Below, piece after piece: positions 4,902 to 11,751 of a DNA stretch of 64,000 bases. The stretch spans positions 1,612,001 to 1,676,000 of the forward strand of contig NZ_CM001377.1 in the NCBI RefSeq assembly GCF_000237825.1, given 5' to 3'. The notes below the pieces were generated by a model. It worked only from the letters and a program-made list of their open reading frames with translations. It searched no databases and had not been told where the DNA came from. The position numbers were made by a program, and so were the translations under genes. Positions within the stretch are counted from its first letter, which is position 1, and every line of letters starts with the position of its first letter. The stretch is from Thermanaerovibrio velox DSM 12556 (GTDB lineage Bacteria > Synergistota > Synergistia > Synergistales > Synergistaceae).

Positions 4902-7664
4902 TTAAAACCTTGACTCCCCGCCGGGCAGCTCCTGAAACCGCAGCAACACTTCCTGCACGAAACGCCTCCAGGAGGGCTTGCCTATGGAAAGGGCGGAAAG
5001 GGATCGGTCAATCAGCGCTCCAGCCTCCTCCATCCTCCCCTCCAGCCCCCTGTGAAGGGCCGCCACCGCAAGCACCGATGGGTCATGCCTCACCCAGGGC
5101 ATCGCCGAGAAGATCCCCAAGGCCTCTTCCGCGTGCCCAAAGGCCCCATCCATATCCCCCGCCAGGTACTTGAGCCTGACCAATACGGAGAGGGCGAAGG
5201 GCTCAACCCTCATGAAGCCCCTGGATCTAACGGCCTCCAGGCACTCCTGGACCCTGGCCATCCCATCCCCCCGTCTCCCCAGGAGGAACAAGCACTCCCC
5301 CTCGTAAATCCCAGCGGCCAAACGATTGAGCTCGTGAGGGCTGCCCATCTCCGTCAGCATCTCAAACTCCGCGGCGGACTCCTCGAAGAACCTAAGCGCC
5401 CCATGCAGATCCAGGGAGAACATCCTGGAAAGCCCCATAAACCGGAGGGAAAGGCCCTTAAGGGGGATCGACCGGGGCTTCAGGTCCCGCAGCTTAAGGG
5501 CCGCCTCCTCCAGCCTAACGGGGTTCTCCACCTGTATGTAGAAGTAACCAAGCCGCCTTAAGCATCCCGCCAGGACGTCAAGGTCCCCCGCCTTCATGGA
5601 CATCTCAGCCCCTCGGGCGGTCATCTCAACCCCCCTTTGGTACTCCCCCCACCAGAGGAGGAAACCCCCCTTGATCATCGCATACCGGGAGGCAAGCTCA
5701 TCACCGACGCCGATGGCGGACATGAGGGACCTGCACTCCTCCAGCATCTCCTCCGTGGCCTCCCTGGTGCCGTAAAAGCTGGAGGGCCCAAGCAGCGAGT
5801 CCGGCAGCAGGGGAAACAGCTCGTAGTGAAGCTCCATGTGCCGCTCCAGGTCCTTAAGACGCACCTCCAGCTCCCCCTTGAGGTTGCCGCCCTTCCTCAT
5901 GTGATGGGCCGCCCTCATGGAGGAGAACGGGTCCTCCTTGCGGCAGAAAACCTCCCCCGCCAGGGCATGGAGCTCCATCCGCCTCGACACATCCATGGAC
6001 AGGTATATGCACTCCCGGAAGAGCCCGTGATACACGTCCACCAACGGGCCCTCTGGGCCGTCCTCAATGCGGATCAGCCTCAGGGTCTCAAGGGAACCAA
6101 GGGCCTTCATGAAGCCCTGCCCCTCCAGCGAAGCGATGGATCGAAGCTCCTCCAGCCCCACGGGGCCATCAAGGACCGCCAGGACCTCCATTAACGACCA
6201 CTCGTCGTCGGCGAGATCCCCCATGAGGCCCTCCACGGCACCCACGAACATCTGACCTACAGAGGAAGCACCCTTGGCGGCGTCCTCAACGAACAGGGGA
6301 ACCCCAGCGGTCCTGCTGTAAAGCTCCGCCAGCTCCGCCTCCCCCAACGCCCTCTGGGAAAGCCTCTCGAATAGCTTCCCCGTGTCCTGGGGGCTCAAGG
6401 GCTCAAGCTCCACCTCCAGGAGCCCTAAATCCCCCCTCATCTTAAGGGACCTTAGAAACCGCCTCAGGGGCCCATCACCCCGCCGGGATATGAGCGCCAC
6501 CCTGATGCCGCAGCGGGGGGTCATGTAGCTAAGGAAACCCTCCAGCGCATCCATGGAGGCCTCGTCAAACCTATGCAGGTCGTCGAATATGACCCAAAGC
6601 CCCCGATTCCCCCGGCAAACCATGCCCAGGAGCTGGAACACCATGACCCCTATGGAACGGGAGTCCACGGGCTGGAAGTCCGACCTCCTCACCCCCAGGG
6701 AGGGGAACACCTGCCCAAGCCGCATGAGAAGGGGGGAGGATAAGGCCTCCCGGTCCATGAGATCCTTGGCCATCAATCCCCTCAGGAGGTCCTCGAAGGG
6801 CCAAAGGGGAAGCTTGCCCATAACGGGCCTCGCCCAAAGCGCAGGGGCCCCGTAAAGCCGGGCAAGCTCCTTGGCGAAACTGGTCTTCCCAACCCCCGCC
6901 TGTCCGAAAAACCAAAGGACCGCTGGATCGGAAGCACCGGCGAACTCCAATGCCCTCCTCAGCTCCAGGTCCCTTCCCACCAGGCTTGACCTCTCCATCA
7001 TGAGGGCCACCGCCCGGTCCCTCAGAGCCACCGAATCCTCTGAGGGCTCATCCCCCTCGTCGTTCAACGCCGCCCTAAGGCGCGAAAAGACCCTAAGGGC
7101 ATCCCCGGGACGACCCAGGGCGACAAGACAGTCCATGAGCCCCAACGCCAAGTGCTCGTCCCAAGGGGACCGGTTGAAGAGCCCCCAAAGCCCCGAAAGA
7201 CGGACCTGATCCCCGTGATCCCGAGAACCAGCCAGGAGAAAGCGCCTAACCCGCTCCGACAGGTCCATCCTCATGGACTCAACCCACTCCTCAAAGAGGG
7301 GACAGTCCGGGAGGCTCAACCCCTCCAGGAACTCACCCCGGGGAAATGGGGGGAAGGAACCCTGCAAAACACCGTCCAGGTCCACCTTCCAACCCTCACC
7401 CCGGATGACCCATAGCCGGTCCACCAGGACGGCACCTTGGGGAAGATGCCTTTTCAACTCATAAAGGGCATTCCTGAGGCTCCCGGACGCCCGGTTGCTG
7501 TCGTAGTCTCCCCAGAACATATCCTCAAGACGGGTCCGCTGAACCCTCCGATTGACCAGGACGTAAGCCAAGAGGCCATAGGCCTTCTTGAAGGGAAGCG
7601 CCGTCTCCGTTCCGTCCATGTATATGCGGAAGGGCCCCATGAGACGGGCTTCCAAGGAGCTCAT
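4902..7664 (-). CDS. SARP/AfsR-type transcriptional regulator with BTAD domain and AAA ATPase
   Basis: About 920 residues. The N-terminus is an OmpR-like winged helix (LEARLMGPFRIYMDG, then KKAYGLLAYVLVNRR, LRNALYELKRHL). A bacterial transcriptional activation (BTAD) domain follows, with TPR-like helices (HLALGLMDCLVALGRPGDAL). Next comes a P-loop ATPase: Walker A FGQAGVGKTSFAKEL near residue 260 and a Walker B-like WVIFDDLHRFDE near residue 370. The C-terminal 400 residues are helical, repeat-like and Leu-rich, as in MalT/AfsR-class signal-transduction ATPases. The family binds promoter DNA in response to a ligand or partner. ATG 7664 overlaps the stop of the upstream gene by four bases (ATGA); GTG 7676 is an alternative. 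It is last in a five-gene overlapping operon with hisC, so its target may be this locus or the divergent his operon. That target is inferred from position only. Confidence 0.8.
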   Translation of the reverse strand: MSSLEARLMGPFRIYMDGTETALPFKKAYGLLAYVLVNRRVQRTRLEDMFWGDYDSNRASGSLRNALYELKRHLPQGAVLVDRLWVIRGEGWKVDLDGVLQGSFPPFPRGEFLEGLSLPDCPLFEEWVESMRMDLSERVRRFLLAGSRDHGDQVRLSGLWGLFNRSPWDEHLALGLMDCLVALGRPGDALRVFSRLRAALNDEGDEPSEDSVALRDRAVALMMERSSLVGRDLELRRALEFAGASDPAVLWFFGQAGVGKTSFAKELARLYGAPALWARPVMGKLPLWPFEDLLRGLMAKDLMDREALSSPLLMRLGQVFPSLGVRRSDFQPVDSRSIGVMVFQLLGMVCRGNRGLWVIFDDLHRFDEASMDALEGFLSYMTPRCGIRVALISRRGDGPLRRFLRSLKMRGDLGLLEVELEPLSPQDTGKLFERLSQRALGEAELAELYSRTAGVPLFVEDAAKGASSVGQMFVGAVEGLMGDLADDEWSLMEVLAVLDGPVGLEELRSIASLEGQGFMKALGSLETLRLIRIEDGPEGPLVDVYHGLFRECIYLSMDVSRRMELHALAGEVFCRKEDPFSSMRAAHHMRKGGNLKGELEVRLKDLERHMELHYELFPLLPDSLLGPSSFYGTREATEEMLEECRSLMSAIGVGDELASRYAMIKGGFLLWWGEYQRGVEMTARGAEMSMKAGDLDVLAGCLRRLGYFYIQVENPVRLEEAALKLRDLKPRSIPLKGLSLRFMGLSRMFSLDLHGALRFFEESAAEFEMLTEMGSPHELNRLAAGIYEGECLFLLGRRGDGMARVQECLEAVRSRGFMRVEPFALSVLVRLKYLAGDMDGAFGHAEEALGIFSAMPWVRHDPSVLAVAALHRGLEGRMEEAGALIDRSLSALSIGKPSWRRFVQEVLLRFQELPGGESRF

Positions 7665-8644
7665 CGGCGCTCGCACATCCCCTTTAGAAAGCGAAAGATC
7701 ACATCCGCCCCAAGGGAGGCGGTCCTCTGGTCCTGGTCTAGGGGAGGGCTTATCTCCATTATGTCCAAGTACTTCACCTTGTAGCTTCGGCCCGCCAGGT
7801 ACGCCACCTTGTTGAGCTCGTGGGAGGAAAGGCCGTTGGGGGACACCGCGGATGCCCCGGGAGCATCGGTGCTCCTAACCGAGTCGATGTCCACCGAAAC
7901 CGCTATGGCCCGGGTTCCCCTTCCGGCTATCTGAAGGGCCTTTATGAAGGTCTCCATGGGACGCCCCTGGATCTCGTCGAAGGTCATCACCGTGGCGTGC
8001 CTATCGGAGAGCCAGTCATAGTAATAGGGGGAGTTATGGGCCTCCTGTATAGCGTACTCCACGAAGTTCTTGGGGCTCACGGCCCTCATGGGCATCTCCT
8101 CCAGGGAACGATAGAAGGGGGTGCCGCTGGTTATGCCGCCCCAAGAGAGGTCCCTGACGTCCAGGTGCTGGTCCACGTTGACCACCCCCAGCTCCCCTTC
8201 CCCAAGGCCAAGCCCCTCCGCCAGCCCCCAAAGGCCGGGGTAGCTGTTGTCGTGCCCCCCGCCTATCACGATTGGTATGACCCCGCAGGAGACCACCCAT
8301 CTGACCACCCTGCGGAGCGCATCGTGGGCCTCCTCTATGGTCAACCCGTCCACTTTCACGTTGCCCACGTCGGCTATCTTCAGCTCCCCAAGGGAGGGGG
8401 CAAACCCAGGGGTAAAGCGGTAGAAAGCCCTCCTAACCGCGTCCGGCGCCAGCCGGGCTCCGGGACGGCCCTTGTTGGCCCTTACGCCCCGGTCATCGGG
8501 CATTCCAACAATGACCACGTCAAAGGCCTCAATGCCGCCCTCCGTTACCGGCACCACCAGCTCCCCCATCCGAGGGTCCTTGGGATCCCCCTTGCTGAAG
8601 AAAAGGCCCCGATCCGGGGGGGTCAAAAGATCAAACAGGTCCAA
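7661..8644 (-). CDS. Ureohydrolase (arginase) family protein, formimidoylglutamase-like
   Basis: About 327 residues from TTG 8644, which has GGAGG upstream; a longer frame starting at 8743 would overlap the previous gene by over 100 bases. The Mn-binding motifs of the arginase fold are present: GGGHDNSYPG, NVDQHLDVRD and the late SVDIDSVRSTDAPGAS. SGTPFYR after the second motif and the PNGLSSHEL segment resemble HutG (N-formimino-L-glutamate + water to glutamate + formamide) more than agmatinase. Loop residues differ from textbook HutG, so substrate is not certain. It overlaps the SARP gene by four bases and the ProRS-like gene by 14, so it is made with them. A histidine-degradation enzyme beside a biosynthetic his operon is unexpected. 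Other options are agmatinase, guanidinobutyrase or a new amidine hydrolase. Confidence 0.75.
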   Translation of the reverse strand: MDLFDLLTPPDRGLFFSKGDPKDPRMGELVVPVTEGGIEAFDVVIVGMPDDRGVRANKGRPGARLAPDAVRRAFYRFTPGFAPSLGELKIADVGNVKVDGLTIEEAHDALRRVVRWVVSCGVIPIVIGGGHDNSYPGLWGLAEGLGLGEGELGVVNVDQHLDVRDLSWGGITSGTPFYRSLEEMPMRAVSPKNFVEYAIQEAHNSPYYYDWLSDRHATVMTFDEIQGRPMETFIKALQIAGRGTRAIAVSVDIDSVRSTDAPGASAVSPNGLSSHELNKVAYLAGRSYKVKYLDIMEISPPLDQDQRTASLGADVIFRFLKGMCERR

Positions 8645-9806
8645 CTCCCATCTCCTCCAATGCCAAATGAAGTGCCTCAAGGTCCACCCGGTAAAGAGCG
8701 GAGGGACGATACTGGACACGGCCCTCCCTGGAGGAACAGACAAAGCCCAAATCCCCCGGGTCGTCGGGGATCACACACTCCCCAACAACCCGGGCCAGCC
8801 GACCCCGTAGGTCACCCCCACAGGAGGGACACCGGTCACCCTCCGACAGGGCCGCCAGATCCGCAAACTCGGGGGTGAAGTCCCTGAGGGGCACCAGGTT
8901 CGCCAAGTGCCTATCCCGCCGGTTAGCCCCCGCCACCATGGGACGGGAAAACCTAAGGGATTCATGGGCTATTATAGTCACCGGCCTCATAATCCCAACG
9001 GGCCCCAAAAAACCGGCACAGTCCCCGAAGACCCTCTCCACCACCCGCTCAGAAGCCATCTGAGCCTTGAACTTGAGGGCCCGCGAGGCCTTGGGGTACG
9101 ACAGGCTCATGTGCCCCGGCAGCAGGAGCGCCGCCGCCCGCTCACCCTCTTGGTCCATCACCGCCACGGTCTTTATGGTGTCCTCAGGCCTTACCCCCAG
9201 GAACGAGCACAGGTCCTCTATGGTGGAAACCGAGGGGGTGTAGACCTCCTCCGCCGGGGGGAAGTCACAGGAAGCCGGCAACTCCGTCTCCTGGGACGCC
9301 AAGGGGTGGTGGGGGGAGAAAAAACCGCCGCAGGACGAACACTCCAAGACCTCCCCGCAGTTCATGGCCCCCTGCGCCGCAGGAACCGTCCAAAGGTACC
9401 TCAATCCCCCCTCGAAGACCTCGGGCACCGGCCTCACCCAACCAAACGGCGGGGACTTGGGCTCCCCCGCGGCACCTTCACCGAACTGCACCGCCAGACA
9501 CAGGTCCTCCCCCACGGTGCCCCAGGTTAGAAGACCATGGTCCCGCACGTACCGCTCCGCCAGGCTCTTCAGGTGCTGGAAGCTCCCAGCCCCTCCGCAC
9601 ACAACCCCTCCCATGGAGGATATCCAACCCTCCAGGACGCCCATCAAGGCCCTGCGCTCCGAAAGCCCAATGGGCAAAAGCAGAAGACGCCCCTCCTTGG
9701 CGTTGTAAGCCCCCTTGCCGGAGGTCACGATCGAGATAAGCCCCGGATCCTTCACCTTCGCCGGTGGGTTCTGGGAGGGCACGAAATCTCTGACAGCACC
9801 GGTCAA
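8631..9806 (-). CDS. Degenerate prolyl-tRNA synthetase paralogue with INS (YbaK-like) editing domain
   Basis: 391 residues. Residues about 189-315 match the INS editing domain of bacterial ProRS: VYTPSVSTIEDLCSFLGV, DTIKTVAV, FLGPVGIMRPVTIIA, GANRRDRHLANLVPLRDF. A CPSCGG metal-knuckle-like motif follows at about 326-331. The segment just before (ECSSCGGFF) corresponds to the ProRS TTEC/CSSC region, and the N-terminus keeps a ghost of the motif 1 helix (LLLLPIGLSERR). Class II motifs 2 and 3 and the C-terminal anticodon-binding domain are not recognisable, so it should not charge tRNA. It could be a stand-alone tRNA deacylase or, like HisZ, an aminoacyl-tRNA-synthetase relic turned regulatory subunit. 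It overlaps hisC by four bases (ATGA). I do not know a characterised protein with this build. Confidence 0.75.
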   Translation of the reverse strand: MTGAVRDFVPSQNPPAKVKDPGLISIVTSGKGAYNAKEGRLLLLPIGLSERRALMGVLEGWISSMGGVVCGGAGSFQHLKSLAERYVRDHGLLTWGTVGEDLCLAVQFGEGAAGEPKSPPFGWVRPVPEVFEGGLRYLWTVPAAQGAMNCGEVLECSSCGGFFSPHHPLASQETELPASCDFPPAEEVYTPSVSTIEDLCSFLGVRPEDTIKTVAVMDQEGERAAALLLPGHMSLSYPKASRALKFKAQMASERVVERVFGDCAGFLGPVGIMRPVTIIAHESLRFSRPMVAGANRRDRHLANLVPLRDFTPEFADLAALSEGDRCPSCGGDLRGRLARVVGECVIPDDPGDLGFVCSSREGRVQYRPSALYRVDLEALHLALEEMGVGPV

Positions 9807-10900
9807 CCTAGCCTCACCTCCAAAAGGACCTCCTTGAGGGCATCGAGAAAGGCCCGGTTCTCCTCCGGTCGCCCCACGGTGACCCTCACGGCCCCCAAAG
9901 GCCCGTAGTGTCTTACCATTATGCCCCTTTCAACGAGCCCGTGAAACACCCGATCCGACGAGGCCCCGAACAGCAGGAAGACGAAGTTCCCGTAGGACCT
10001 GACGAAGCTGACGCCCAAGGCCGAAAGCCCCCCTTGAAGCTCCTCCCTCTCCCGTATCACCCGCTCCACCACGGACCTGAGGAAACCCATGTCCTCCAGG
10101 GCCCCCAAGGCGCCGGCCAGCGCCAGGGCGTTCACCGAATAGGGCTCCTTGGCTCTTCTCATGTGGGATATGACTCGCTTCGAACCTGCTATATATCCCA
10201 CCCGGAGCCCCGCAAGACCGTAGGCCTTCGAGAAGGTGCGCAGCATCACCAGGTTATCCCTTTGAGCTATCATCTCCGCGGTACGCGGAAAGTCCGGAAG
10301 GTCCGCGAAGTCCCCATAGGCCTCGTCACATACCACCAACACGCCGGGGGGCACCTTTTCCAGGAACTCCTGCAGCTCCCCGTGGGAGAAGACCGTGCCG
10401 GTGGGGTTGTTGGGGTTGCACAGGAACACCAGCTTGGTCCTTGGGGTTATCCGCTCCGCGAAACCCTTGAGGTCCAAGGACCAGTCACCCCTCATGGGGA
10501 CCTCCACGGACCTGGCGCCCAGCCTTCCCGCCAGCGAACGGTAGACCGAGAAGGTGACCCCGCCGTGAAGGACTTCGTCCCCCTCTTCCAGGAATGTTAT
10601 CCCCAGCAGGGTTATGACCCCGTCAAGGCCGTTGTCCACCAGGAAGCAGTCCTCCGGCAGCCCCCAATGACGGGATAGGGCCCCCCGAAGCTCCCGGGCC
10701 AGCGGGTCGGGATAGCGGTTGAGCCCCTCCCTCAGGACCTTAAGAATCCGGTCCTCCGCACTGGGGGAGTGCCCGTAGGGGCTCTCGTTGGCGTTGAGGG
10801 GGATCACGGGCCTGCCCAGGGAGGCCGCCAAATCCCTGGGCAGGGGACCTGGATCGTAGGGCTCAAGGGACATCAAGGACCTCTTGGGGACCACCGTCAC
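9803..10900 (-). CDS. hisC: Histidinol-phosphate aminotransferase
   Basis: 365 residues, a fold-type I PLP aminotransferase of the HisC class. Visible signatures are LNANESPYGHSP near the N-terminus, FLCNPNNPTGTVFSHGEL, VVCDEAYGDFADL, and the PLP lysine in RTFSKAYGLAGLRVGY. It converts imidazole-acetol phosphate plus glutamate to L-histidinol phosphate plus 2-oxoglutarate. The GTG start at 10900 overlaps the stop of the HAD gene (GTGA), and its own stop overlaps the ProRS-like gene, so it sits inside a coupled operon divergent from hisZGBHAFIE. HisC-like enzymes can also act on aromatic amino acids, but the neighbours favour histidine synthesis. Confidence 0.92.
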   Translation of the reverse strand: MTVVPKRSLMSLEPYDPGPLPRDLAASLGRPVIPLNANESPYGHSPSAEDRILKVLREGLNRYPDPLARELRGALSRHWGLPEDCFLVDNGLDGVITLLGITFLEEGDEVLHGGVTFSVYRSLAGRLGARSVEVPMRGDWSLDLKGFAERITPRTKLVFLCNPNNPTGTVFSHGELQEFLEKVPPGVLVVCDEAYGDFADLPDFPRTAEMIAQRDNLVMLRTFSKAYGLAGLRVGYIAGSKRVISHMRRAKEPYSVNALALAGALGALEDMGFLRSVVERVIREREELQGGLSALGVSFVRSYGNFVFLLFGASSDRVFHGLVERGIMVRHYGPLGAVRVTVGRPEENRAFLDALKEVLLEVRLG

Positions 10901-11694
10901 GAGACCCCACCCCCCAAAACCCAGTCAAGTCCCTCCTCAACGGACGCAAACCTCCTATGGGCCCCCTGGGCCCAGTCCCCAACGGCGATGAACATCCCCC
11001 GCCCAAAGGCCTCCAGGGCGGCCCTGTCGCTCTCCGCATCGCCGAAGAAAGCGGGGTTGGATATCCCAAGCCTCTCGCAGAGCACCTCAAGCCCAAGCGG
11101 AGAGGGCTTCACTATCCCGGAGTCAAGGGGCACCACAAGGTCCCGGGGGAAATCCTCCCACCCCAGGAGCTTTAAGGCCAGATCCAGCTCCCTCCAGGGC
11201 CTGCCGGTGTATATCCCCACGGGCAGCGGAATGTCCTTGAAGGACCGCTTTATCAAGGGCCTCTCGTAGGTGTAATAGGGCTCGCAGTCTATGCCCTCCA
11301 CGTAGAGCCTGTCGCAGAAGCTCCTCACCGCTTCGCGGAACTGAAACCCCGGGTCGGGCTCCCCAAACCTTTCGAGCACCCACTCCACCGGATCATCACC
11401 GTCAAATAAGGTCAACTCGTTCTTCCACTCCTCGGGGGTGGGAAAAGCCTCCTTGAGGCTCCCAACACCCCTGCGGCTCGCCATGCACAGCATGGCCCAG
11501 GGGATGTCATAGTCGTCGTTGAAGGCCCTATGCCCCTTGGTGACCCGTTCGTGCTCCTCCGTGTAGGCCTCACAGTCCACCACGCCCCCTAAGGCCTCCC
11601 AGCCCCACGACACCGCCCGCCGGATCACCCGAGGATAAGAGTCCTTCACGTCCACCAGGGTGCCATCCACATCGAATATTATCCCGTCCACCAT
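10897..11694 (-). CDS. HAD-IA phosphatase, candidate histidinol-phosphate phosphatase
   Basis: 265 residues from ATG 11694 (GGAGG nine to ten bases upstream; longer frames to 11748 are less likely). HAD motif I is IIFDVDGTLVDV, motif II lies in VGIYTGRPWRE, the motif III lysine is in GIVKPSPLGLE, and motif IV is FFGDAESDRAALEA, so all four catalytic motifs are present. The long cap resembles a HAD-IA subgroup often found beside histidine genes. Histidine synthesis needs a histidinol-phosphate phosphatase and the adjacent operon has none: HisB here is only the dehydratase. This gene is the first of the operon and overlaps hisC by four bases. The HolPase role is inference from context; a different phosphomonoesterase role is possible. 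Confidence 0.75.
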   Translation of the reverse strand: MVDGIIFDVDGTLVDVKDSYPRVIRRAVSWGWEALGGVVDCEAYTEEHERVTKGHRAFNDDYDIPWAMLCMASRRGVGSLKEAFPTPEEWKNELTLFDGDDPVEWVLERFGEPDPGFQFREAVRSFCDRLYVEGIDCEPYYTYERPLIKRSFKDIPLPVGIYTGRPWRELDLALKLLGWEDFPRDLVVPLDSGIVKPSPLGLEVLCERLGISNPAFFGDAESDRAALEAFGRGMFIAVGDWAQGAHRRFASVEEGLDWVLGGGVS

Positions 11695-11751
11695 TTGCAC
11701 AACACCTCCGTTGCATTTCCGCGGACACCATGATAACATGGGATCCACGTT

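Follow-up and report, generated by a model that had tools for sequence, protein, structure and literature searches.

A worn remnant of a full bacterial prolyl-tRNA synthetase (ProRS), to judge from its sequence unable to charge tRNA and with its proofreading domain (INS) kept, is encoded in Thermanaerovibrio velox DSM 12556 within the 64,000-nucleotide stretch of DNA analysed here (the window). The displaced enzyme has probably been kept for the sake of INS, which would hydrolyse mischarged Ala-tRNAPro in trans. Since another synthetase charges tRNAPro in the Synergistales, proofreading as a protein of its own is the most likely reason for the survival of the relic. By family membership it belongs neither with ProRS nor with ProXp-ala, and both domain sequence and fold place it in the INS superfamily (tRNA_edit). 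No earlier description of a ProRS relic from Thermanaerovibrio or the Synergistetes was found in the open-access literature. The anatomy of the relic, in window coordinates, is the following:

8631–9806, minus strand: degenerate bacterial-type ProRS (the relic), 391 aa, TTG start (open reading frame, Pfam, NCBIfam, alignment, fold)
9357–9806, minus strand: aa 1–150, class II core remnant through and beyond motif 1, motif 2 region missing (alignment, predicted fold, Foldseek)
9330–9341, minus strand: CxxC knuckle 1, C156 and C159 (alignment, conservation)
8853–9251, minus strand: INS / tRNA_edit domain, aa 186–318 (Pfam, PDB ProRS matches, constraint)
9171–9173, minus strand: K212, equivalent of E. 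coli ProRS K279, present in 59 of 59 relics (alignment)
8964–8966, minus strand: H281, equivalent of E. coli D350, which is Asp in 56 of 59 relics and His in the three of the window's genus (alignment)
8907–8909, minus strand: H300, equivalent of E. coli H369, present in 59 of 59 relics (alignment)
8820–8831, minus strand: CxxC knuckle 2, C326 and C329 (alignment, conservation)
8649–8813, minus strand: aa 332–386, motif 3 strand and helix remnants, catalytic Gly/Arg lost (alignment, fold)

The TTG start is preceded by a GGAGG-type site. Pfam recognises tRNA_edit (PF04073) alone, over aa 190–309 (E 1.6e-19, 70.7 bits against a cut-off of 25.5), and the NCBIfam ProRS family PRK09194 matches over aa 185–334 only, scoring 83.6 bits where the cut-off is 558; the sequence matches in the PDB are the INS regions of ProRS. 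The window relic and 58 relatives (n = 59) were aligned with 19 true ProRS. The N-terminus aligns with the ProRS start and the motif 1 region, motif 2 (E. coli R140–P145) is deleted in all 59 relics, and the GIG..R of motif 3 is gone from the window relic and its 58 relatives, with the glycines and the arginine replaced. The anticodon-binding domain is absent from the window relic by alignment and Pfam, the frame stopping short of its position. Within INS, the equivalents of E. coli N364 and G336 are also kept, and both CxxC pairs (aa 156/159 and 326/329) are retained in 55 of the 59 relics. The original prediction that the INS and Cys-knuckle regions of ProRS had been kept, and motifs 2 and 3 and the anticodon domain lost, is thus borne out by the Pfam match and the alignment.

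The predicted structure agrees with this ancestry. An AlphaFold2 model built on an alignment of 26 sequences reached a pLDDT of 88.5 and a pTM of 0.86, and the 12 best PDB matches found with Foldseek were all INS-containing ProRS (E 1e-24 to 6e-22, query TM 0.57–0.69), spanning about 460–475 alignment columns, with the stand-alone INS proteins coming next; the target-normalised TM was about 0.75 to 2CX5 (ProXp-x) and to YbaK. Since the model matches ProRS folds with good pLDDT, the class II core remnants are predicted still to fold. A complete synthetic site was not found in this comparison, which left standing the earlier claim that the gene is a synthetase fossil.

Constraint is inverted between the two kinds of protein, INS being conserved in the relic and the core in true ProRS. 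Positions conserved to at least 85% number 34 of 131 in the INS of the relic and 14 of 239 elsewhere, as against 17 of 131 and 61 of 239, respectively, in true ProRS. Moreover, the gene is maintained under purifying selection: dN/dS against the nearest relative (74% identical) is about 0.27 overall and 0.25 in INS, with a value of 0.17 for hisC in the same comparison. In the window's genus (three genomes) the Arg of the RGD motif has become Pro in all and its Asp has become His in two of the three. These changes, together with the His in place of D350, mean that editing there may be altered or lost; with the K279 and H369 equivalents retained, and with a proposed INS chemistry that uses the 2'-OH of A76 (PMC10164551), activity in this genus is possible, not assured.

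The relic is carried by 68 of 183 Synergistales genomes. In the tree, the sampled relics (n = 59) form a single clade separate from true ProRS, with subgroups that largely track genome families, pointing to an old, mostly vertically inherited gene with many losses. Long relics of about 495–560 aa (with a few made longer by the choice of start) are found in families f2, f4–f8 and f10. The score of their anticodon domain is high in f10 and f6 and low or nil in f2, f5 and f7; the relics of f1, the window's family, have lost the domain. One f8 genome (G122) holds two relic copies (L081 and L083), from different parts of the relic tree, and a ProXp-ala too. As regards origin, descent of the relic from the native Synergistota ProRS of f11 and f12 is neither shown nor rejected by an AU test (p 0.096), and the native locus order of these outgroups (rseP-ispG-proS), looked for around the relics as evidence of descent, was not found. 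A limited pattern scan of genome contigs returned relics in Synergistota records only, the remainder being ordinary ProRS, and in a limited search of 398 genomes from the phylum to which a Clostridia bacterium belongs, all the frames obtained were of ProRS length (571–636 aa), with no relic among them.

Among 188 genomes of the phylum, the cut-off of TIGR00409 (full bacterial ProRS) is exceeded only in 5, all of the outgroup families f11 and f12, and that of the archaeal-type ProRS (TIGR00408) is exceeded in 157. The working ProRS of the window genome is of this second type (TIGR00408, 532 bits), and no tRNA_edit match was found inside it. The other possibility raised in the original prediction, an editing deacylase of unusual build, is likewise supported as the predicted activity, and the finding goes further than that prediction, the relic occurring order-wide beside an INS-less ProRS. 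The two tRNAPro genes read carry C1, G72 and A73, which is the bacterial pattern.

Bacteria with an INS-less ProRS are described as handling Ala-tRNAPro by means of ProXp-ala (PMC10164551). A Synergistota ProXp-ala profile, checked against 5VXB (E 2e-34), found no match in the window genome at E 1e-15. This genome has two further tRNA_edit proteins, a YbaK (188.9 bits, above its cut-off) and a second protein closest to ProXp-x (2CX5, E 9e-28). A genome of the order with either the relic or ProXp-ala mostly lacks the other, for instance within genus g49: among the 183 genomes, 7 have both, 61 the relic only, 51 ProXp-ala only and 64 neither. The 64 and the 7 count against the editing role proposed for the relic. 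The exclusion is strong in the raw counts (Fisher p 1e-6) but not significant in a phylogeny-aware test of independent pairs, which offered too few contrasts, so that the complementarity is suggestive only. In two f6 genomes, ProXp-ala lies immediately 3' of the archaeal-type proS (L243 in G070:C9, and G081:C2).

The proposed course of events would start from a full bacterial ProRS. With the charging of tRNAPro in the Synergistales carried out by an archaeal-type ProRS without INS, the bacterial-type enzyme would have lost its synthetic site and been retained for its INS. Ala-tRNAPro would then be hydrolysed in trans, the conserved Lys gripping the CCA end and a water molecule attacking the ester with the assistance of the 2'-OH of A76, as has been proposed for INS. 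In long relics the old anticodon domain may continue to hold the tRNA. In E. coli, INS needs the anticodon domain in order to choose its tRNA (PMC11295145). Short relics would therefore need other means, and those such as the window's would have to recognise the tRNA by its acceptor stem, with the INS surface or what is left of the core, or in contact with ProRS.

The genes next to the relic, on which the idea of a pathway regulator rests, are the following:

7661–8743, minus strand: arginase/HutG-like gene (Pfam, NCBIfam)
9803–10900, minus strand: hisC (NCBIfam TIGR01141, 312 bits), overlapping the relic by 4 bases, TTGA at its stop
10897–11748, minus strand: HAD-family hydrolase, overlapping hisC by 4 bases (open reading frame, Pfam, NCBIfam)

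The window order is thus HAD-hisC-relic-arginase-like, and the TTGA overlap confirms the predicted four-base coupling to hisC. The relic had also been described as divergent from hisZ, which is not so, the divergent neighbour of hisZ being the HAD gene (10897–11748). The arginase-like gene is closest to HutG, yet scores 189 bits against a formimidoylglutamase cut-off of 229; its start is likely the TTG at 8644, placed there because of a Shine-Dalgarno-like site, which would give an overlap of about 14 bases with the relic. Downstream of it lies a large AAA/BTAD (SARP-like) regulator (4902–7676, minus strand), kept near the relic only in the window's genus and G124. The HAD-hisC-relic arrangement, divergent from hisZ-hisG-hisB, is shared by the window's genus, G124 and several other f1 genera. 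The relic adjoins hisC in 11 sampled f1 loci, the window included, and three further f1 loci keep the HAD gene only; linkage to hisC was found at no sampled locus of other families. At f10 loci (L072, L071, L091 and others) the relic is followed by a small protein and then by dnaK-dnaJ-clpB.

HisZ is a relic of HisRS that serves HisG, and a non-catalytic regulator acting in its manner (on HisC or the operon, for example), perhaps as a sensor of charged tRNA or of an amino acid, is a quite unlikely account of the ProRS relic. The HAD-hisC-relic order in 10 f1 loci, besides variants without HAD or without hisC, the four-base coupling in the window and the eroded INS residues of the window's genus would suit it. 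Nevertheless, the his linkage is absent from all sampled loci outside f1 and from many within it, the neighbours vary as far as the dnaK-dnaJ-clpB of f10, and the conserved positions belong to the editing domain. A role in the his operon was rejected as the general function of the relic family, its linkage to hisC being confined to part of f1, and any role specific to His could be no more than a local addition. Both proteins are synthetase relics encoded beside his genes; unlike HisZ, the ProRS relic has no conserved association with pathway genes, and nothing points to a his role kept through evolution, the editing domain being conserved instead. Therefore, of the earlier proposal of a fossil used as a pathway regulator, the fossil stands, and the regulator is weakened by the neighbourhood survey.

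The remaining alternatives leave the domain in use or deny the gene any use. It is unlikely, and yet the most plausible of these, that INS is active on a shifted substrate, whether a different amino acid (mischarged or non-protein) or a wider range of tRNAs, as with ProXp-x and ProXp-ST1/2. The D350 and RGD changes of the window's genus, the missing anticodon domain of f1 and the seven genomes with both ProXp-ala and the relic are compatible with such a shift, but the H369 equivalent stands in 59 of 59 relics, as in the INS of ProRS, and a ProXp-x-like protein and a YbaK are already present in the genome. An improbable arrangement is that of a subunit of the archaeal-type ProRS, editing only in the complex like the ThrRS T1-T2 pair. 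Core remnants of class II predicted to fold would be at hand for this, and heterodimeric trans editing is known for duplicated ThrRS (PMC4787780); the core is, however, the least conserved part of the relic, and the relic and proS genes are far apart in the window's genome. That the gene is merely decaying without function, as its absence from many Synergistales genomes and its eroded motifs might suggest, is very improbable in view of the open frame, the purifying selection across the order (dN/dS 0.27) and the invariant Lys and His.

A ProRS kept as a trans-editing protein has a close parallel in the archaeal ThrRS-ed, a truncated ThrRS without a catalytic site (PMC9976931, PMC11295145). In both, a copy of a synthetase no longer charges, the editing domain is kept and a separate enzyme charges the tRNA, the activity of the relic being predicted; the long relics resemble ThrRS-ed further in keeping editing and anticodon domains. 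The relic differs in belonging to the proline system, in using INS, in the other (archaeal) type of the charging enzyme and in its persisting core remnants, and the window form also lacks the anticodon domain. With bacterial ProRS (TIGR00409/PRK09194) it shares the overall fold and an INS with K279 and H369, and its CxxC knuckles are as in the outgroup ProRS; it is set apart by the deleted motif 2, the lost motif 3, an anticodon domain that is missing here and degraded in relatives, and scores far below the family cut-offs. ProXp-ala (5VXB), ProXp-x (2CX5) and YbaK (1DBU, 2DXA) have the same INS fold and act in trans, as is predicted for the relic. These are single-domain proteins, as INS-family trans-editing proteins apart from ProRS itself have been described (PMC11295145), whereas the relics, of about 390–560 aa, keep a synthetase core around INS and find their best sequence matches in ProRS.

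At the level of the order, the chances appear evenly balanced that the Synergistales as a whole swapped their ProRS for an archaeal-type one and kept the bacterial enzyme, stripped of catalysis, as a dedicated trans-editing factor, with living species preserving successive stages (anticodon domain present, decayed, absent) of a stand-alone editing protein still in the making. If this holds true, the proline system would have its own counterpart of ThrRS-ed, in the form of an entire ProRS cut down to an editing protein in company with a ProRS that lacks INS. Furthermore, the relics would offer a graded natural series of how an editing domain dependent on an anticodon domain learns tRNA choice without it, and the absence of ProXp-ala from a genome need not mean that Ala-tRNAPro goes unedited.
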